The notes below the pieces were generated by a model. That model ran no database searches, had not been told where the DNA came from, and worked only from the letters and a program-made list of their open reading frames with translations. The position numbers and the translations under genes are program-made. From Janthinobacterium sp. LM6 (GTDB lineage: Bacteria > Pseudomonadota > Gammaproteobacteria > Burkholderiales > Burkholderiaceae_D), in assembly GCF_002002885.1 (NCBI RefSeq), contig NZ_CP019510.1, positions 5,766,001 to 5,830,000 of the forward strand: 64,000 nucleotides of DNA, written 5' to 3'. Shown one piece after another: positions 5,680-55,214 of this stretch; the first letter of the stretch is position 1, and the number at the start of each line of letters is the position of its first letter.

Positions 5680-8417
5680 GTTGGTTTTCCTGTTTCATGG
5701 TCGTTGGCGTCATCGAGCTCGATCTCCGGCGGCGCCGGCGGCGTGCCCAGCGGCAGGCTGAAGACGATGGCGGCGCCCTGCCCCGGCGTGTGGGGCTGCG
5801 CGTGGATGGTGCCGCCATGGGCTTCGACGATGGCGCGGCAAATGGCCAGCCCCAGCCCGACGCCCGGCTTGTTCGATTCGCGCTCGCCGCGCGTGAATTT
5901 TTCAAAGATGGCTTCTTCGCGGCCCGGCGGCAGGCCCGGGCCATCGTCAAGCACCGTCACCTGCAGGAACTGGCCGTGCACCCCGGCCGCGACCGTGATG
6001 GTGCTGCCGGGCGGCGTGTACTTGGCCGCGTTTTCCAGCAGGTTGCACAGCACGCGCTCGATCAGCACGGCATCGTAGCGCACCAGTGGCAGGTCCGGCG
6101 CCAGCTGCGTCTGCACGGCGTGCTGCTGCAATTGCGGGCCGCTGGCGCGCAGCGCGCTGCCCACCACTTCTTCCAGCGCCTGCCATTGCAAATTCAGGCG
6201 CACCTGGCCGCTCTCGATTCGCGCCATGTCCAGCAAGTTCGCCACCAGGGCGCTCATGCGCACGGTTTCGGACTGCAGCGAGCGCGCCATGTCCAGTTGC
6301 GCGGGCGACAACGCAGGCCGGGACAGGGCCAGCGATTCGGCCAGGCCCACCAGCGACGTCAATGGCGTGCGCAAGTCGTGCGACAGGGCCGCCAGCAGCG
6401 AATTGCGCAGCCGCTCGGACTCCATCTGCAGCAGCGCGCCCTGGGCCACATCGATGTAATGCACACGTTCAAGCGCGATGGCCGCCAGCGCGGCAAAGGT
6501 ATCGAGGTGCTGCCGCTGTTCCGGCACCAGCAGCCAGCGCCCCCGCTGCGCGCCATCGAGCGGCAGCAGCGCCAGCACGCCACGCGTGCGCATGGGCGCG
6601 ATCAGCGGCAGGTAGAAAATGGGCGACGCCGGCAAGGTATCCGTGCCCGTCCCCGCCGCCTGCGCATGGTCGAAGGCCCACTGCGCGATGCCGATATCGA
6701 GCGGTTCGCCGCCGTTCGTGGCCTGCAAGCTGCCCTCGTCATCGGGCAGCAGCAAGGTGGCGCGCGCGCGGAACGCCCGTTCGATGGCACTTTTCGTGAT
6801 GTCGAAAATCTGCTCCGTCTGCAGCACGCCGGACAACTCGCGCGAGAATTCGTACAGGGCGCGGGCGCGCGCTTCGCGGTGCGAGGCCACGCGCGCCTGG
6901 AAGCGCAGGCCGGCCGTCAGGTGGCCCGTGATCAGTCCCACGGCCAGCATCACGCCAAACGTGATCACGTACTGAAAATCGCCCACAGCAAACGAGAAAC
7001 GGGGCGGTACGAAGATGAAATCGAAGCAGGCCACGCCCACCAGGCTGGCCAGCGCCGCCGGCCCACGCCCCAGGCGCACGGCCACCAGCACCACCGTCAG
7101 CAAGGACAGCATGGCGATATTGGCCAGGTCCAGGTAAGGTTGCAATGGGACCGAGGCGAGGGCCGTGCCCAGGCTGGCGCCGCCGGCCAATATGTAACGC
7201 CAATGGCGCGACGGCCGGCGCGGCGTCTCCGCGTCGTCGCCGGCTGCGCGCCGCGGCGCCGCATCGGCTGGCGGCAAGCCCACCTCGATCAAATCGATAT
7301 CGGGCGCCAGGCTGGCCATGCGCGCGGCCGGCGGCGCATGCCACAGGCGCGCCAGCGCGCCGGCGTGGCCACGCCCGACGATGACTTTAGAAATATTCGC
7401 GCTGCGCGCATATTCGACCACGGCGCCGGCGATGTCGGCGGATGGCACAATGGCGGTGCGCGCGCCCAGGTCCTGCGCCAGTTTCAGCGTTTTCAGGATG
7501 CGTTCGCGCTGGCTCGCCGGCAGGCGCTGCAAACGCGGCGTTTCCACGTACAGCGCGTGCCATTCCGCGTTCAGCTGACTGGCCAGGCGCGCCGTGCTGC
7601 GGATCACGTGCTCCCCCCCCGCGTGCGGTCCCACGCAGGCCAGCAGCGCGGCGCCCGTCTTCCACACGGGATTGATGGATTTCTCGACGCGGTAAGCTTG
7701 CACGTCGTCCTGCACCCGGTCCGCCGTGCGGCGCAAGGCCAGTTCGCGCAGGGCGATCAGGTTCCCCTTGCGGAAAAAATGCTGGGACGCCCGCTCGGCC
7801 TGCAGCGGCTGATACACCTTGCCCTGCTTCAGGCGGCGCAGCAGTTCATCGGCGGGGATATCGACCAGCACCACTTCATCGGCGCGGTCGAACACCGTGT
7901 CGGGCAAGGTCTCGGCCACGCGCACGCCCGTGATACCGCCTACCACATCGTTGAGGCTTTCCAGGTGCTGCACGTTGACGGTCGACAGCACGTCGATGCC
8001 GGCCGCCAGCAATTCCTCGACATCCTGCCAGCGCTTCGGATGGCGCGAACCGGCCACGTTCGAATGGGCCAGTTCATCCATCAGTATCAGCGCTGGCGCG
8101 CGCCGCAGCGCTTCGTCCAGGTCGAACTCGTACAAGGTCTTGCCCCGGTACTCGATGGCCTTCAGGGGCAGCACGGGCAAGCCGTCAAGCTGGGCAGCCG
8201 TATCCTGGCGCCCATGCGTCTCCACCACGCCCACCAGCAAATCCTGGCCGTCGGCCAGCAATTTGCGGGCGGCCGCCAGCATCGCGTAGGTCTTGCCGAC
8301 GCCGGCCGAGGCGCCGAAATAAATGCGCAGCCGGCCGCGCGCGGCTTTCTTTTCCTGCGCCTGCACTTGCGCCAGCAGGGCATCAGGGTCGGGGCGTTGG
8401 CTGTCGTTGGGGAGCAT
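5676..8417 (-). CDS. kdpD: Sensor histidine kinase KdpD
   Basis: 913 residues, full length. Order: N-terminal KdpD domain with the P-loop GASAGVGKTYAML (about residues 34-46); a UspA-like nucleotide-binding domain (about 250-370); four close transmembrane segments (DUF4118, about 400-500); a GAF-like region; a HisKA domain with phospho-acceptor H680 in ALSHDLRTPLTSL; and a HATPase with the N box LLENAAKYTP and G boxes LDDGPGLPPG and GVGLGLAI. It senses K+ limitation and osmotic state and phosphorylates KdpE. It lies 58 bp after kdpC and overlaps kdpE by 4 bp. A long open frame on the opposite strand is a composition shadow. Confidence 0.96.
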   Translation of the reverse strand: MLPNDSQRPDPDALLAQVQAQEKKAARGRLRIYFGASAGVGKTYAMLAAARKLLADGQDLLVGVVETHGRQDTAAQLDGLPVLPLKAIEYRGKTLYEFDLDEALRRAPALILMDELAHSNVAGSRHPKRWQDVEELLAAGIDVLSTVNVQHLESLNDVVGGITGVRVAETLPDTVFDRADEVVLVDIPADELLRRLKQGKVYQPLQAERASQHFFRKGNLIALRELALRRTADRVQDDVQAYRVEKSINPVWKTGAALLACVGPHAGGEHVIRSTARLASQLNAEWHALYVETPRLQRLPASQRERILKTLKLAQDLGARTAIVPSADIAGAVVEYARSANISKVIVGRGHAGALARLWHAPPAARMASLAPDIDLIEVGLPPADAAPRRAAGDDAETPRRPSRHWRYILAGGASLGTALASVPLQPYLDLANIAMLSLLTVVLVAVRLGRGPAALASLVGVACFDFIFVPPRFSFAVGDFQYVITFGVMLAVGLITGHLTAGLRFQARVASHREARARALYEFSRELSGVLQTEQIFDITKSAIERAFRARATLLLPDDEGSLQATNGGEPLDIGIAQWAFDHAQAAGTGTDTLPASPIFYLPLIAPMRTRGVLALLPLDGAQRGRWLLVPEQRQHLDTFAALAAIALERVHYIDVAQGALLQMESERLRNSLLAALSHDLRTPLTSLVGLAESLALSRPALSPAQLDMARSLQSETVRMSALVANLLDMARIESGQVRLNLQWQALEEVVGSALRASGPQLQQHAVQTQLAPDLPLVRYDAVLIERVLCNLLENAAKYTPPGSTITVAAGVHGQFLQVTVLDDGPGLPPGREEAIFEKFTRGERESNKPGVGLGLAICRAIVEAHGGTIHAQPHTPGQGAAIVFSLPLGTPPAPPEIELDDANDHETGKPT

Positions 8418-49535: not shown

Positions 49536-49567
49536 CCACGGCCACGCGCCGTCGCCGTGGCGTTATT
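49531..49567. terminator. Bidirectional hairpin between convergent genes
   Basis: AATAAC-ACGGC ... GCCGT-GTTATT spans 49531-49567 and includes the stop codons of both the YfcC gene and the convergent hydrolase gene. The A/T-rich stem ends can act as a T tract on both strands. Confidence 0.65.
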
Positions 49568-50828
49568 TGCGGTACGCCTGTCCGTAGGCACCATGGATGC
49601 CGCCCTTCGCCCAGTCGGCCATCAGGTCGTAAAACCCGGGCGTGATGACGGTAGGCTTGCGCGTTCCATCGGGCGCCTGAACATAGCTGCGCATACCGTG
49701 ATCGGCCTGCGGGAAAAGGTAGACAGAAATAGCCTGGCCCTGGCCGCGCAACGCCGTCAGGCGCTCGACGGTAACGGCCGGCGGCGCCTGGCGGTCATCC
49801 TCTGCCAAGGCCCACAGCTGCGGCACCGTGACTTGCCGCGCGACCTGCACGGGATCGAGCGACCAGTCGATATCGAGCTTGTCGAACCGCGGTATGCCAT
49901 TCTTGCGCAGCTCATCGGCCGGCATGCCCAGCAACACGCCCGTGTAGCCGCCCTTGATGAGGGCAAACCACGGTTCCTTGCCAAACTGCTGCTGGAATGC
50001 CGACAGGTCGTCCAAGCCATCCTTGTAGCCGGACTTGACGATTCTGGCCGTGATATCCGTCACCGTCCTGGCCTTGGCGATGACGTCGCCGCCATAGCCC
50101 TTGCCCTGCAGTTCCCTGGCAACCTGCGCCGCATCCTGCTCCGTGATATCGGTCACCAGGCCATAGCCGATGCCGAGAAAGTGCGCCTTGGCGCGCGCCT
50201 GCGCCAGTGGGGCGATCCAGCCGCCCTGGCTCACGCCCATCAGGCCGAAGCGGCCGTAACGTCCTTGCGCCAGCCGTTTTGCTTCGCGCGACGCGGCCAC
50301 CAGGTCATCGGCCAGGCGCGGAAAATTCTGCGTATATTCGCCTTCGGACAGCCCGGTACCGCGCTTGTCATACACGAAAACGGACACGCCCCGTCCCACC
50401 ATCTGATAAGGGTCGCGCGCGCGGTCGATCCAGCCGCTGCTTTCGGAACCATGGGCATACACGACCAGTGGCGTGTCCTTGCCGGCGCCCGGCGCTTCCA
50501 TCAGACGGCCTGCCAGCATGACGCCATGCGATTCAAAGCGCGTATCTGCTTCGGCCAAAGCCACTTTCGGCCAGCGTTCCTTGCCGTTGACAAGCACGGC
50601 GTCCTTTCCGCACGCGAGCAACGCGCCGGCATCCTGCGTGTTGCCAACGGTCCCGTCGCTGAAGGTATAGCCATAGCCTTTCGCCCCCTTGGTGAGGGCG
50701 ACAAAGCCCGTCTGGTCCAGGCGAAAAATACCCGTCTCGCAAGGTGCCGGGCTGAATGCCTCCGGCATGGGCGCAGCAGTCGCCGAGAACGATATGGCAA
50801 GCAGAGGCCAGAAAAAATTTGAGGTCAT
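49563..50828 (-). CDS. Secreted alpha/beta hydrolase (S9/serine-aminopeptidase-like)
   Basis: 421 residues. Signal peptide MTSNFFWPLLAISFSATAAP. N-terminal beta region of about 110 residues (GIFRLDQTGFVALTKGAKGY), then the hydrolase fold: TPLVVYAHGSESSGWIDRAR (oxyanion strand), VYDKRGTGLSEGEY, nucleophile elbow FGLMGVSQGGWIAPLA (Ser), and a late FPQADHGMR (His). The catalytic Ser and His are plain; the Asp is probably in LWALAEDDRQAP. Substrate unknown. It lies 43 bp downstream of the 65-residue peptide gene on the same strand, so they may share a transcript. Confidence 0.82.
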   Translation of the reverse strand: MTSNFFWPLLAISFSATAAPMPEAFSPAPCETGIFRLDQTGFVALTKGAKGYGYTFSDGTVGNTQDAGALLACGKDAVLVNGKERWPKVALAEADTRFESHGVMLAGRLMEAPGAGKDTPLVVYAHGSESSGWIDRARDPYQMVGRGVSVFVYDKRGTGLSEGEYTQNFPRLADDLVAASREAKRLAQGRYGRFGLMGVSQGGWIAPLAQARAKAHFLGIGYGLVTDITEQDAAQVARELQGKGYGGDVIAKARTVTDITARIVKSGYKDGLDDLSAFQQQFGKEPWFALIKGGYTGVLLGMPADELRKNGIPRFDKLDIDWSLDPVQVARQVTVPQLWALAEDDRQAPPAVTVERLTALRGQGQAISVYLFPQADHGMRSYVQAPDGTRKPTVITPGFYDLMADWAKGGIHGAYGQAYRK

Positions 50829-50871: not shown

Positions 50872-51069
50872 TTACAGAGCGGCTTTTTCTTCCGCGCTCA
50901 GGCGCTTGGCGCTGACATGCACGGTGTGCATGGTGGCTTGATCGGCGCTGGCGATCATGGATGCCGGCGCGGCGCGGAACTTCGGCACGGCGGCGGTGGC
51001 CAGGCTGGTAGCAGCGGCGATGGCGATGACGGCAACGAAGATGGCTTCCATGTTTTTAGCGATGTTCAT
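50872..51069 (-). CDS. 65-residue secreted or membrane peptide, copy 1
   Basis: MNIAKNMEAIFVAVIAIAAA begins a single hydrophobic segment, followed by VPKFRAAPASM and a hydrophilic C-terminus with SAKRLSAEEKAAL. It could be cut at ATA-AVP and secreted or stay as a one-helix membrane peptide. A second copy at 54752-54949 is identical at 58 of 65 positions. Ribosome site CAAAGGAACC. The upstream control element is duplicated with it. I recall similar short proteins in Oxalobacteraceae; function unknown. Confidence 0.75.
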   Translation of the reverse strand: MNIAKNMEAIFVAVIAIAAATSLATAAVPKFRAAPASMIASADQATMHTVHVSAKRLSAEEKAAL

Positions 51070-51109
51070 GACGGTTCCTTTGGGTGGCGGGTTGTCTGCT
51101 GCGATGATG

Positions 51110-51177
51110 GAACTGTAGGCGCATCGGCCGGCCATCTCCAGCGGCTTGCGACCAACCGCCCAAAAGAAGGGACAGAA
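51110..51177 (-). promoter_or_regulatory. Bipartite control element of the 65-residue peptide, copy 1
   Basis: On the minus strand: TTCTGTCCC (51177-51169), 13 bp, TTGGTCGCAA (51155-51146), 28 bp, TACAGTTC (51117-51110, likely -10). The same three blocks with the same two spacings occur before copy 2. The two left blocks form an imperfect direct repeat 22 bp apart, the geometry of LytTR-type activator sites. No -35 is present. Confidence 0.6.
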
Positions 51178-51265
51178 TGCCAACCGGCCCGATGAAAGGC
51201 AGGAAGGCTGGCTGGACGCCGTTCCCTGCGGCGGACAAGCCGCCGCCTGCATTGCTTGCAAGGGT

Positions 51266-51295
51266 GCTACAAATGTGGCATGCTACATTTGTAGC
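51266..51295 (+). promoter_or_regulatory. BlaI/MecI-type operator over an extended -10 promoter
   Basis: Inverted repeat GCTACAAATGT-N8-ACATTTGTAGC. It contains TACATTTGTA (51284-51293), an exact TACA-N2-TGTA BlaI/CopY half-operator, and TACAAATGTG (51268-51277), one mismatch, with centres 16 bp apart. TGC-TACATT (51281-51289) is an extended -10, so repressor would block it. It lies 23 bp before ATG 51319. Confidence 0.8.
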
Positions 51296-51318
51296 CAACT
51301 CAATCACCAAGGAAAACG

Positions 51319-52567
51319 ATGCTCTCATTCGCATGGAAGTGGCCTGCTGTCTGCCGCCGTCCTGACAACGCCGGCCGTCGCCGCCGATTTTGACGGCATG
51401 GTCAGCGTCGGCGGGCATCCGCTGCACGTGGCGCAGGCTGGCACCGGACCATATACCGTCGTCTTCGAGGCGGGCTTCGCCAGCGACCTGTCGGTATGGC
51501 GCAAGGTGGCGCCGGAGGTGGCGAAGAAGGCGGCGGTGCTGCTCTACTCGCGCGCCGGCTACGGCGAGTCGCCGGCGCGCCCGCAGCCGCTCAGCATGGA
51601 GCAAAGCGTCGCCGAGTTGGCCGACGTGCTGCGCCTGCGCAAGGTGGAGGGACCGCTGATCCTGGTGGGTCATTCCTATGGCGGCTTCCTGATCCGCTAT
51701 TTCGCGGCCACGCATCCGCAGCGTATCGCGGGCCTGGTCTTTGTCGACCCTGCGGATGAAGGACTGGAGGCCGCTCTCAAGCGCATCGATCCGGCGCGCG
51801 TGCAGCAGGACCAGCGCATGCTCGCTGCCAGCATCCCGGCCAAGTGGCAGGGCGAGCTGCAGACGGTCCAGGCCATCCTCGATGCGGGCAAGCTGCCGGC
51901 GATGCCGGCACTGCCCGACGTGCCGGCGGTGCTCCTTACATCCGTGCAGGCGCGTGCCGGTTCGGACTTTTTCCAGGAGACGCCGGCCATCGTCAAGATC
52001 AAGCGCGAGCGGCACGCCGCCTTCCTCAGCCAGTTTTCCAGCGGCGCGCACGTCTTCACGCCGAACAGTGGCCATGGCATCCAGATGCAGGAGCCGGAGC
52101 TGGTCGTTGCCGCCATCGGCCAGGTCATGACCCTGGCCACGCAGGGCGCCGCACGCGTGGCCAGGGCGCAGGCCAGACAAAAACTGATGGGGGAACTGGA
52201 GCACAGCGCCGCCTTGCTGGGCGAGCAGCAGAACGACGCGGCCGCAAGCCGCATCGCGCTCGCGCTGCGGGACAGCGCCCTGAGCGAAGCGGAGATCAAT
52301 ACGCTGGGTTTCGACCTGCTGACCAGAGCGAAGCAGACGGCGCTGGCCACGCTGGTGCTGGCGTACAATAACCAGGCTCACGCGCAGTCCGACAATGCCG
52401 CGGACAGCTACGGCGAAGCCTTGCTGGCGGACGCCCGCCCTGCGGAAGCGCAGCGCGAGTTCACGCGGGCGCTTGCGCTGGGACAGGCCAACGGTGCACG
52501 CGAACAGGCAATGGCCGGCTACCGCCAGCATCTTTCACAAGCAGAGCAAGCATTGAAATCACCATGA
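51319..52567 (+). CDS. Secreted alpha/beta hydrolase with apparent frameshift in the signal peptide
   Basis: The fold is open from at least 51398 (MVSVGGHPLHVAQAG) to 52567: VVFEAGFASDLSVWRKVAPE, SRAGYGESPA, nucleophile LVGHSYGGFLIRYFAA, NSGHGIQMQEP (His), then a helical TPR-like tail of about 130 residues. The best start, ATG 51319 with AAGGAAAACG, is one frame off: it reads MLSFAWKW and stops at 51393. Dropping one base after the AAG at 51337-51339 gives MLSFAWKGLLSAAVLTTPAV then AADFDG, a perfect signal peptide in frame with the hydrolase. Real frameshift or sequencing error cannot be decided here. Stop overlaps blaI (ATGA). Confidence 0.7.
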
Positions 52568-52980
52568 AAAAGAAACCCTTAGCCACTGTCCCCGCCGAGA
52601 TGTACGGACTGGAAGACCTGGCACCGCGCGAGCGCCAGGTCGTCGAATGCGTGTACCGGCTGCAGGAAGCCACCGCGTCGCAAATCCAGGAAGCACTGGG
52701 CCCGGACTTGAGCAATTCGGCGGTGCGCGCCATGCTGGCGCGCCTGGAAACGAAGGGCGTACTGCAGCATCGCGTCGATGGCCAGCGCTATTTGTACAGC
52801 GCCGTGGCGCCGCAGGCGCAGGTGCGCGAGTCGGCGCTGAAAAAACTGGTCGGCACCTTTTTCAACAACTCCAAGGCCAGCGCCGCGACGGCCTTGCTCG
52901 GCATGTCCGGCGAACTGAGTGCGAAGGAGCTCGATGATCTCGAAGCGATGATCGCGAAGGCACGCCAGGAAGGCCGCTGA
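52564..52980 (+). CDS. BlaI/MecI/CopY family repressor
   Basis: 138 residues. Winged helix: LAPRERQVVECVYRLQEATA, SQIQEALGPDLSNSAVRAML and LETKGVLQHRVDGQRYLYSA, the normal BlaI layout. A C-terminal dimerisation part follows (ESALKKLVGTFFNNS). It should bind the TACA-N2-TGTA operator found upstream of the hydrolase and be inactivated through the BlaR1-like protease encoded next. Its start overlaps the hydrolase stop by 4 bp and its stop overlaps the protease start by 1 bp. Confidence 0.92.
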   Translation: MKKKPLATVPAEMYGLEDLAPRERQVVECVYRLQEATASQIQEALGPDLSNSAVRAMLARLETKGVLQHRVDGQRYLYSAVAPQAQVRESALKKLVGTFFNNSKASAATALLGMSGELSAKELDDLEAMIAKARQEGR

Positions 52981-54527
52981 TGGCGGGAACCGACCTCGCG
53001 CAGCTGCTGTTGAAGCATAGCGTGACGGTCGTGCTGCTGCTCTGCATGCTGCGCCTGCTGCACCGCGCATCTGCCTCGCGCCGCGTGTTTGCCACGCGCT
53101 GCGGCCTGGTGGCGCTGCTGTTGATGCCCTTGTTCTGGCTATGGCTGCCGCAGCTGCCCATGCGCATGCCGCTGGCCCTGTCGGCCCTGCTCGATCCTCC
53201 TCTGCGCATTCCCGCCGGCGTGACGACGGCCGCACTGCCCGACATCGACGCAGCCGTAGCTGCCCCGGCACGTGCCGCATGGCTGGGCCGCTGGCTGCTG
53301 GCCGCGTATGCCGTCGGCGTGGCATGCCACCTGCTGCGCCTGGCGCTGAACCTGGTGCGCCTGCACCAGGCGAGCATCGCCGCACAGGTGCTCGAAGCGC
53401 CGGCATGGACAACGGCCCTGCAAAGGCTGCATCGGTCGCTGGGCCTGCGCCGCCCCGTGCGCCTGCTGGTCTCCGCTACGGCCGCATCGCCATACAGCTG
53501 GGGCTGGCGTCAACCCGTCATCGTGCTGGACCGGCACAGCACCGGCAACGCACAGGCCGATGCCGTGCTGGCCCACGAACTGGCGCATATCCGCACCCAT
53601 GACTGGCCCATGCTGCTGCTGGCGCGCGTGCTGCTTGCCCTGTACTGGTGGCACCCGCTGATGTATCCGCTGTTGCGCATGTTCGAACACGATACGGAAT
53701 GCGCTGCCGATGATGCGGTGCTGGCTGCCGGCGCCACGCCATCGCGTTATGCCCACACCCTGCTCACGGTGTCGCGCCAGGCCTTCGGCGCAGGAACGGC
53801 AGGCAAGCCGGCAGCGAGCATGGCCAATCGCATTGCCAGCCGCGGCGCCATGCTGGGCGCACGCATCGCGGCGCTGCTGGAAGCCCATCGCCCGCGCGGG
53901 CGCGTCACGCTGCGTCAATGGTGGAGCGGCATGCTGTCCACCGTGGCGCTGGTGTGCGTGATCGGCAGTATCACGCTGCAAGGGGAACGGGTGCTGTGGC
54001 CGGACAGCCTGCTGCCGGGTCCCGACAGCCGGCAGCAAGACCCGGTCGCCTTGCTGCAAGCGCTCGACAACCCGAATTTCACCCGGCTTGCCAGCGCGAT
54101 GCGCACCAGGGACTACACGCTGCGCCATGCGGCCGAGACGGAATCGTTCCGCCAGCGCGCCGCCATACCGGCGCTGCTGCTGGCCTTGCGCGACCCGCAG
54201 CCTGTCGTACGCCAGCTTGCCGTCTGGGCCTTCGGTGAAATGCGTTTTACGGAAACGGCACCCGCGGTGGCGGCGCTGCTGGCCGATCGCGACGCCGCGG
54301 TGCGCGCCGAGGCTGCCGCTGCGCTGGGCGACATGGGCGAGCGGCGCTGGCTGGCGCCGATGATCGCCATGCTGGGCGACAACGACGCTCTGGTGCGCCG
54401 CCGCGTGGCGCATGCGCTGGGCGACTTGCAAGCCGGCACCGCCATTCCCATGCTGCAAAGCTGCTTGAACGATCCCATTCCCGACGTGGCCAGCGAAGTG
54501 CGCTGGGCGCTGGACGAAATGCGCTAG
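52980..54527 (+). CDS. BlaR1-like M56 membrane metallopeptidase with HEAT repeats
   Basis: 515 residues. Four membrane helices (about 12-32, 38-58, 95-118, 320-338). An M56 zinc-protease loop has VLAHELAHIRTHDW (H199-E-x2-H) and the downstream EHDTECAADDAVLA. In place of the penicillin-binding sensor of BlaR1, the C-terminal 160 residues are HEAT-like repeats: IPALLLALRDPQPVVRQLAV, VAALLADRDAAVRAEAAAAL, IAMLGDNDALVRRRVAHALG. It probably cleaves or triggers the BlaI-type repressor when an unknown signal is felt by the HEAT domain. Confidence 0.88.
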   Translation: MAGTDLAQLLLKHSVTVVLLLCMLRLLHRASASRRVFATRCGLVALLLMPLFWLWLPQLPMRMPLALSALLDPPLRIPAGVTTAALPDIDAAVAAPARAAWLGRWLLAAYAVGVACHLLRLALNLVRLHQASIAAQVLEAPAWTTALQRLHRSLGLRRPVRLLVSATAASPYSWGWRQPVIVLDRHSTGNAQADAVLAHELAHIRTHDWPMLLLARVLLALYWWHPLMYPLLRMFEHDTECAADDAVLAAGATPSRYAHTLLTVSRQAFGAGTAGKPAASMANRIASRGAMLGARIAALLEAHRPRGRVTLRQWWSGMLSTVALVCVIGSITLQGERVLWPDSLLPGPDSRQQDPVALLQALDNPNFTRLASAMRTRDYTLRHAAETESFRQRAAIPALLLALRDPQPVVRQLAVWAFGEMRFTETAPAVAALLADRDAAVRAEAAAALGDMGERRWLAPMIAMLGDNDALVRRRVAHALGDLQAGTAIPMLQSCLNDPIPDVASEVRWALDEMR

Positions 54528-54751
54528 GCGTGGCTGTCCGCTGCCGCCGGCGCGATGCCGATGGCTGATGATGGCTGGCTGATAAAAAAAATAGGGTGCC
54601 TGGCTGGAAGCGTGCGTTCCGCCTGTTGCTACGCTGTGTTGTGGATTGCTGCTGTCACCTGGGCTGGAGAGAACCGGGGGCGCCGCCCGTTCGAATTGCC
54701 TGTGACAAGATACTGCGATGTACTGCTACTGCCTGCATGGCACGGCCACGC

Positions 54752-54949
54752 TTACAGGGCGGCTTTTTCTTCGGCGCTCAGGCGCTTGGCGCTGACGTAC
54801 ACGGTGTGCATGGTGACTTGCTCGGCACTGGCGGCAATGGGTGCCGGCGCAGCGCGGAACTTCGGCACGGCGGCGGTCGCCAGGCTGGTGGCGGCGGCGA
54901 TGGCGATGATGGCGACGAAGATGGCTTCCATGTTTTTAGCGATGTTCAT
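54752..54949 (-). CDS. 65-residue secreted or membrane peptide, copy 2
   Basis: MNIAKNMEAIFVAIIAIAAA then the same layout as copy 1 (50872-51069); seven of 65 residues differ, clustered at 37-45. The ribosome site CAAAGGACATCATC and the whole upstream element are conserved too. The C-terminal SAKRLSAEEKAAL is identical. It is not followed by a hydrolase gene; 54528-54751 downstream holds no gene I can support. Function unknown. Confidence 0.75.
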   Translation of the reverse strand: MNIAKNMEAIFVAIIAIAAATSLATAAVPKFRAAPAPIAASAEQVTMHTVYVSAKRLSAEEKAAL

Positions 54950-54990
54950 GATGATGTCCTTTGGGTGGCTGGTTGTGTGCTGCGATGATT

Positions 54991-55058
54991 GAACTGTAGG
55001 CCGATCCCCGCTGAACCGCCATCGGATTGCGACCAAACGCACAATTCGCGGGACAGAA
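54991..55058 (-). promoter_or_regulatory. Bipartite control element of the 65-residue peptide, copy 2
   Basis: TTCTGTCCC (55058-55050), 13 bp, TTGGTCGCAA (55036-55027), 28 bp, TACAGTTC (54998-54991). Block sequences and spacings match copy 1 exactly while the sequence between blocks has diverged, which indicates selection on the blocks. Confidence 0.6.
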
Positions 55059-55214
55059 TACAAAAAGCCCGGATGGAACGCACAACGTGCCCGCGCCGTG
55101 GCATTTGAGGCTTGCCAGCCCCAATCCTGGCCATTTCAGCGCCCTGCAAGCCCCTAAAAGCCCTACCACCGGCCAACCTTGTTTATAATCGCCCTACACT
55201 AAAGGACTTCTTTC

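Follow-up and report, generated by a model that had tools for sequence, protein, structure and literature searches.

What controls, and what is the purpose of, a small gene that a bacterium carries twice within about four kilobases, each time behind the same three-block upstream element? We address this question for a stretch of 64,000 nucleotides of the Janthinobacterium sp. LM6 genome (contig NZ_CP019510.1, positions 5,766,001 to 5,830,000; hereafter, the window, to which feature coordinates refer). Copy 1 (50872..51069) and copy 2 (54752..54949) of the gene, both on the minus strand, encode 65-residue peptides that are 89% identical (58/65 residues), as a sequence-only reading of this DNA had noted. 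That reading also suggested an activator, perhaps a LytTR-type response regulator, that controls a family of small secreted peptides with a signalling or membrane-active role. Our comparisons establish, at the level of sequence, the peptide family, its promoter code, the membership of a regulon, the co-occurrence of peptide and kinase, and operon linkage. As an overall explanation we cautiously favor an envelope regulon of a LytS/LytTR system whose exported peptides would bind TonB.

A promoter element with fixed spacing

The pattern TTCTGTCCC-N13-TTGGTCGCAA occurs exactly twice in the window, each time upstream of one peptide gene, and allowing up to three mismatches again gives two matches, against 0.02 expected. 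At both copies TACAGTTC lies 28 bp beyond the second block and the filler sequences are unlike, so that the three blocks with gaps of 13 and 28 bp stand as originally described. For copy 1, the element (51102..51184, minus strand) comprises the distal box TTCTGTCCC at 51169..51177, the AlgR-like proximal box TTGGTCGCAA at 51146..51155 and the -10 hexamer TACAGT at 51112..51117; for copy 2 (54983..55067, minus strand), the same parts lie at 55050..55058, 55027..55036 and 54993..54998. The -10 is 28 bp from the proximal box in each case, and no TTGACA-like -35 was seen by eye at the two window promoters, in agreement with the earlier description.

Across the whole genome, a close pattern with up to three mismatches was found at 8 places, compared with 4 for a backwards control. 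The exact string is too narrow for a genome search, and a profile was therefore used: R1, a sequence-only model of the 86-bp element, which scores copy 1 at 62.2 bits (E 2.4e-18; this copy is within the training set) and copy 2 at 75.4 bits (E 1.8e-22).

The blocks are conserved well beyond the window. Among 98 upstream regions of the peptide family, the gap from the best TT-N-GTCGCAA-like box to a TANAGT -10 is 28 bp in 96 (gaps of 22-34 allowed), the exceptions being one tandem copy in locus L050, and locus L094. Forty-eight non-redundant promoters from those 96 align gap-free across 86 columns; the distance from box to -10 is fixed by selection in this set and the remaining columns are free. 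Positions that never vary among the 48 are C at -3, T4, C5, C7, A8, G17, TA-N-AGT and the CA at the probable start.

LytTR-type promoters carry a direct repeat of about 9 bp with a spacing of 21-22 bp, and the first two blocks had been read as an imperfect direct repeat of this kind. This part of the reading holds for the window group, where GTC recurs at a 21-bp offset and TTCTGTCCC forms the distal box. Other peptide groups have a looser and varying distal box, a point against the explanation favored here. The proximal box shares 6-8 of 9 bases by eye with the AlgR site CCGTTCGTC, the match being 8/9 in many elements, 7/9 in one window copy and 6/9 in the other. If transcription starts 6-7 nt after the -10, the proximal box would be centered near -45.

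The kinase/LytTR operon and its probable regulon

Which protein reads this element? A search for the suspected LytTR regulator found 8 LytTR domains in the source genome, and only one LytTR operon has an R1 match. The genes that come after this site encode a LytS-type kinase, a REC-LytTR regulator and a PAS/HisKA_3 kinase, the first two near 1.918-1.921 Mb of the contig (G000:C1). The first kinase matches His_kinase PF06580 (E 1e-20) and HATPase_c (E 2.3e-10) and shows, by eye, two hydrophobic segments flanking an extracytoplasmic part; the regulator beside it carries REC and LytTR domains. The operon adjoins the apparent start of a 16S rRNA gene (locus L164, about 6800-7300), judged to be one by a sequence signature. 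In many draft genomes no more than about 700 bases separate the kinase from the end of its contig, probably due to the adjoining 16S rRNA gene.

The kinase and the peptides occur largely in the same genomes. Queried with its first 208 residues, the kinase sensor was found in 190 of the 294 genomes of the source taxonomic family: 152 have both kinase and peptide, one has the peptide alone (G180, E 4e-4), 38 have the kinase alone and 103 have neither. Fisher's p of 1e-45 is descriptive only, as it ignores shared ancestry, to which the co-occurrence is partly owed; this tells against taking the association at face value.

Operon linkage is seen in genomes of genus g22, none of which was in R1 training. 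Among the four read, one has the order element, three-motif peptide, one-motif peptide, kinase, DUF2807 gene and LytTR gene (G060), another has this order as far as the kinase (G085), and two have a three-motif peptide between element and kinase (G164, G191). More generally, an R1 match was present at the kinase in 39 of 41 loci searched, which were drawn from 50, those left out being mostly at contig ends; half of the 41 are close relatives from one genus. A position script counted 38 of 41: at L174 a site seen by eye went unreported, at L203 the start was chosen too early, and at L211 the site lies further up. Of 18 kinase loci read from the 38 kinase-only genomes, 17 have an R1 match on the kinase strand near or before the start, the weakest at E 0.0024.

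These figures also bear on a rival view in which something else, either an alternative sigma factor or another of the LytTR proteins, recognizes the element and the kinase operon is one more target. Seven further LytTR proteins in the genome could play that part. Yet the kinase is present in 152 of 153 peptide genomes though LytTR domains are commoner (270 of 294 family genomes), the element recurs at the kinase in the two sets of loci just described, and one genome with only two LytTR matches (G002) still has two peptide matches and 13 R1 matches. A distance of 28 bp to the -10 is not that of a sigma -35/-10 pair, and for this spacing the sigma-factor version was set aside. We regard a different reader as improbable, and control of the peptide genes by the kinase/LytTR system as highly probable. 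Activation by a LytTR-type regulator, as first suggested for this locus, is well supported by the fixed spacing, the AlgR-like proximal box and the element on the co-occurring LytS/LytTR operon. The peptide genes would then be outputs of one autoregulated system, a LytS-type membrane kinase with its REC-LytTR regulator, in which the phosphorylated regulator would bind the two boxes and recruit RNA polymerase to a -10 that lacks a usable -35.

R1 matches are largely confined to this group of bacteria. A scan of named genomes with the pattern M[NHK]x[AL]KNME[AIV] confirmed 186 stretches, of which the best 80 were used, giving 78 loci; R1 matches 77 of these, in 76 directly upstream of the matched gene and in L265 before its tandem partner, and many of the 78 belong to the same species as the R1 training loci. 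Its best match is E 3.5e-17 or better in 23 of 25 genomes of the genus and weak in the other two (G021, E 0.07; G037, E 0.39), and the best in 16 genomes of 16 other families is E 0.011 (the filters lose some weak matches). G021, which is 98% complete, has no peptide, kinase or LytTR match at the thresholds used and weak promoter matches only, reflecting either natural loss or a misplaced lineage.

With a cut-off of E 5, R1 matches the source genome at 24 places, and 14 of these have an E below 1e-3. Besides the peptides and the kinase, the genes so preceded encode an HlyD-type adaptor (L146, E 1e-8), a beta-lactamase-fold protein (L148, E 5e-6), a DUF2807 protein (L149, E 8e-6), a HAAS protein behind a 51-residue open reading frame (L150, E 2e-5), and small membrane proteins that fall in no family (L145, L147, L151). 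Several other members rest on weak matches, which counts against a regulon of that breadth: a second beta-lactamase-fold protein recognized by eye (L155, E 0.004), two more DUF2807 genes (L156, E 0.012; L158, E 0.064), an unclassified protein (L157, E 0.016) and a DUF4440 protein (L159, E 0.19). The matches L154 and L161-L163 look like chance matches within genes and were not counted as targets. Among the proteins scanned, none matched PspA, PspC or LiaF, a result that covers some of the targets and no genome-wide search for the three.

Eight further genomes from six genera contain 113 R1 matches at E up to 0.1. Of the 25 that were read, 13 precede a peptide, three a relative of L147, two a HAAS protein, and one each a relative of L157, the kinase and a peptidase-like frame; four have no gene named by the filter. 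A DUF2807 gene comes next after five of the peptides.

The regulon's products are thus largely envelope proteins (DUF2807/toastrack, HAAS, HlyD-type adaptor, serine-hydrolase-like and small membrane proteins), and because of this we consider an envelope disturbance the probable inducing signal. For this bacterial group, the result is a regulon that extends across the taxonomic family and whose sensor, regulator and promoter code can be named; it places small proteins that so far lacked an explanation, and DUF2807/HAAS proteins with them, under common control.

The peptide family and its TonB-box-like end

What, then, do the peptides do? The source genome, a single 6.29-Mb contig, has five members; the three outside the window lie upstream of a serS-like gene, beside a DUF2807 gene and beside a YXWGXW-like gene (serS and YXWGXW being names we presume from the neighbors' sequences). 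A profile of the five matches 37 of 40 genomes of the genus, mostly with 4-6 divergent copies per genome (range 0-6), and 153 of the 294 family genomes, in 12 of 34 genera. The titles of the named loci include Janthinobacterium, Duganella, Massilia, Pseudoduganella and Rugamonas, together with bins labelled to family or phylum level. Pfam holds no family for the peptides, and the window copies match no plug or barrel domain; NCBIfam at E up to 1 gave two chance-level matches, both well below cut-off, and no peptide family; PHROGs gave no peptide family and a single match at E 0.096. A phage origin is unsupported, as tblastn against phage records gave no match.

From 110 loci we drew 98 distinct members. 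Of a set of 38 non-redundant peptides, 33 entered one alignment, and 31 plus the two window copies entered the other (L269 was dropped for masked residues). Signal peptides and membrane segments were called by eye and from the alignment. An A-x-A at residues 24-26, the pattern of signal peptidase I sites, is present in 37 of 38 (S accepted at 24), and copy 1 has a probable signal peptide at residues 1-26. Invariant in 33 aligned members are M1, K5, N6, M7, E8, A24, A26, R56, K62 and A63, the constancy of KNME in this alignment being imposed by the search pattern; among the 98 members, KHME, KHIE, KYME, NNME, KNLE, KNFE and QNME also occur, and the multi-motif proteins of g22 and G278 lack KNME. 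The C-terminal consensus M-x-V-V-T-V-x-A-K-R-L-T-A-A-E-K-A-A-L was imposed by no search pattern. The G278 protein (L360 898-1203), of 101 residues and probably exported, has two copies of the motif and was found only through the promoter model, with no peptide-profile match.

Export, with cleavage after the A-x-A, is very probable, and the mature form of roughly 39 residues would end as a TonB-box-like strand (M-x-x-V-x-V-[ST]-A-K-R-L; residues 47-57 of copy 1) plus a basic tail. A family of small secreted peptides, as the sequence-only reading had it, is hence likely. The signalling or membrane-active role that it attached to them finds no support of its own. LytTR-like promoters with fixed spacing occur in Gram-positive bacteriocin regulons, and a small, probably exported product behind such a promoter would suit a secreted signal or antimicrobial peptide under activator control. 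Against this stand a mean net charge of a modest +2, the conserved strand-like end, presence in 37 of 40 genus genomes, and a fixed neighborhood, with a short sequence tag for argH within the stretch in 36 of 42 peptide loci read. By eye, a Gly-Gly leader is not conserved among the 98 members, and a double-glycine bacteriocin was rejected on that ground. We judge a secreted signal or antimicrobial very unlikely.

The C-terminal end instead resembles the TonB boxes of the genome's own receptors. In the source genome, a model of this end ranks the five peptides first and then, as the best outsider genome-wide, METVTVSARR, the TonB box of a TonB-dependent receptor, just before its plug (E 1.4); a further match at E 2.6 lies in an ABC-transporter-like frame. 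Thirty of 71 plug-bearing proteins were used as receptor loci, and 37 of the 38 non-redundant peptides entered the tests. With the peptide profile, the region ahead of the plug outscores the remainder of these receptors, beyond the 95% level in 17 of 30 and beyond the 99% level in 6 of 30. As the receptor register in that comparison was chosen with the peptide profile, it was repeated with a motif (MQRVEVTGSSI) derived from those 30 receptors and no peptides. This receptor-only motif falls on the C-terminal motif in 35 of 37 peptides and, against 857 stretches from window frames, brings 34 of 37 past the 95% level and 28 of 37 past the 99% level; the null frames are the longest frames, possibly with false ones among them, and the top-scoring stretch is a receptor's own TonB box. 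The three best-scoring places in each three-motif protein, from G060 and from G085, coincide with its three motifs.

Several observations pull the other way. The E of 1.4 for the receptor's box is weak, and with shuffled peptides as the null, just 20 of 37 pass the 99% level under the receptor-only motif. For nine single sequences, the shuffle p ranges from 0.0005 to 0.066 (0.035 for copy 1 and 0.0105 for copy 2). One of the nine, the serS-side peptide, contains a different stretch that slightly outscores the C-terminal motif. Besides being short and beta-prone, the motif does not begin with an acidic residue as about half of consensus TonB boxes do (PMC6118199). At the other end of the protein, KNME is conserved beyond what a plain signal peptide accounts for. 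The case that the peptide motif is in register with the TonB boxes of the same genome's receptors thus appears good for the family and weak for any single sequence. The higher-scoring stretch in the serS-side peptide (L003 1501-1701) is NTVEVSAS, which directly follows the probable signal-peptide cut.

The main rival is a feedback peptide that would damp or boost its own kinase by binding to the extracytoplasmic part, the TonB-box likeness being incidental. Feedback on kinases by small proteins is known (PMC8404706, PMC12714742); the peptides are a main output of the regulon and adjoin the kinase in the g22 genomes; and the conserved N-terminus, mostly KNME, could touch a membrane partner. The g22 and G278 proteins do without KNME, however, and the several divergent copies per genome, with three motifs in some proteins, suit a general ligand better than one kinase. 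The conserved C-terminus is in register with TonB boxes. On balance we think feedback unlikely.

Binding to TonB, the function that we prefer for the peptides, is itself tentative. The mature peptide might bind TonB, or a protein like it, at the periplasmic domain, compete with the receptors and reduce their traffic during stress. In its fullest form, a natural TonB decoy in the shape of an exported protein made up almost wholly of a signal peptide and one to three TonB boxes, released on envelope stress through LytS/LytTR and shutting TonB-dependent uptake, the proposal is more doubtful again; such a decoy would also bar the entry of bacteriocins, phages and siderophore-like antibiotics. If the peptides do bind TonB, TonB-dependent transport would have a regulated brake in the periplasm; iron, vitamin B12 and many bacteriocins and phages enter by this route.

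Neighboring genes and known systems

Two gene groups accompany the peptides in the window. An S33/S9-like hydrolase gene (49563..50828, minus strand) starts 43 bp 3' of peptide copy 1, with which it is possibly co-transcribed. The BlaI and BlaR1 genes lie between the two copies; the BlaR1-like M56 protein beside BlaI (52980-54527) ends in HEAT repeats, and a domain scan matched no penicillin-binding domain in it. A BlaI or BlaR1 tag was present in 4 of the 42 peptide loci (L032, L047, L085, L090), and tandem peptide copies without such a tag were seen in 11 of 42, some of which share one genome; because of this the association looks incidental. These counts would miss BlaI/BlaR1 genes lying farther away, as most stretches extend over just 1.5-2.5 kb and a single short pattern serves as each tag. 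Across the genus, the argH locus holds one to three peptide copies in the stretches read, with differing genes between them.

LytS/LytTR systems, toastrack and HAAS envelope proteins, and TonB boxes are known already; the literature searched, which largely omits subscription papers and in which no paper names both LytTR and Janthinobacterium, showed no case of all these together with exported peptides dedicated to a TonB box. A close relative in design is AlgR/AlgZ (FimS) of Pseudomonas aeruginosa, which likewise pairs a LytTR response regulator with a LytS-kind sensor. The AlgR site CCGTTCGTC, as given in PMC4064291, is identical at 8 of 9 bases to the CAGTTCGTC of many elements here, and the same source places site RB3 at -45 of algD in the opposite orientation. 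AlgR sites are dispersed, whereas the elements described here have two boxes at a fixed distance from the -10, and the regulons differ.

The AgrA system, unlike the one described here, is Gram-positive, has proximal repeats near -60, and has as its peptide a processed quorum signal. Its P2/P3 promoters resemble our elements in having paired LytTR direct repeats upstream and poor -35/-10 spacing (PMC4227749). The PSP and Lia envelope-stress systems include toastrack (DUF2807/DUF4097) and HAAS domains, and DUF2807 and HAAS proteins are also targets here, with the secreted peptides as an addition. LytTR is found in operons with toastrack in Firmicutes, according to PMC11237479; that paper argues for an intracellular domain, whereas our toastrack proteins have, by eye, a start that resembles a signal peptide.

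The TonB boxes of receptors and colicins have the register M/L-x-x-V-x-V-[TS]-[AG] in common with the peptides. In the peptides, by contrast, no plug, barrel or toxin follows the motif, which lies close to the terminus of a short exported protein and in some cases is present in two or three copies. MgrB, which acts on PhoQ, is a further parallel. MgrB and other small kinase regulators are, like the peptides, short exported or membrane proteins made by the regulon; the peptides differ in their conserved TonB-box-like end.

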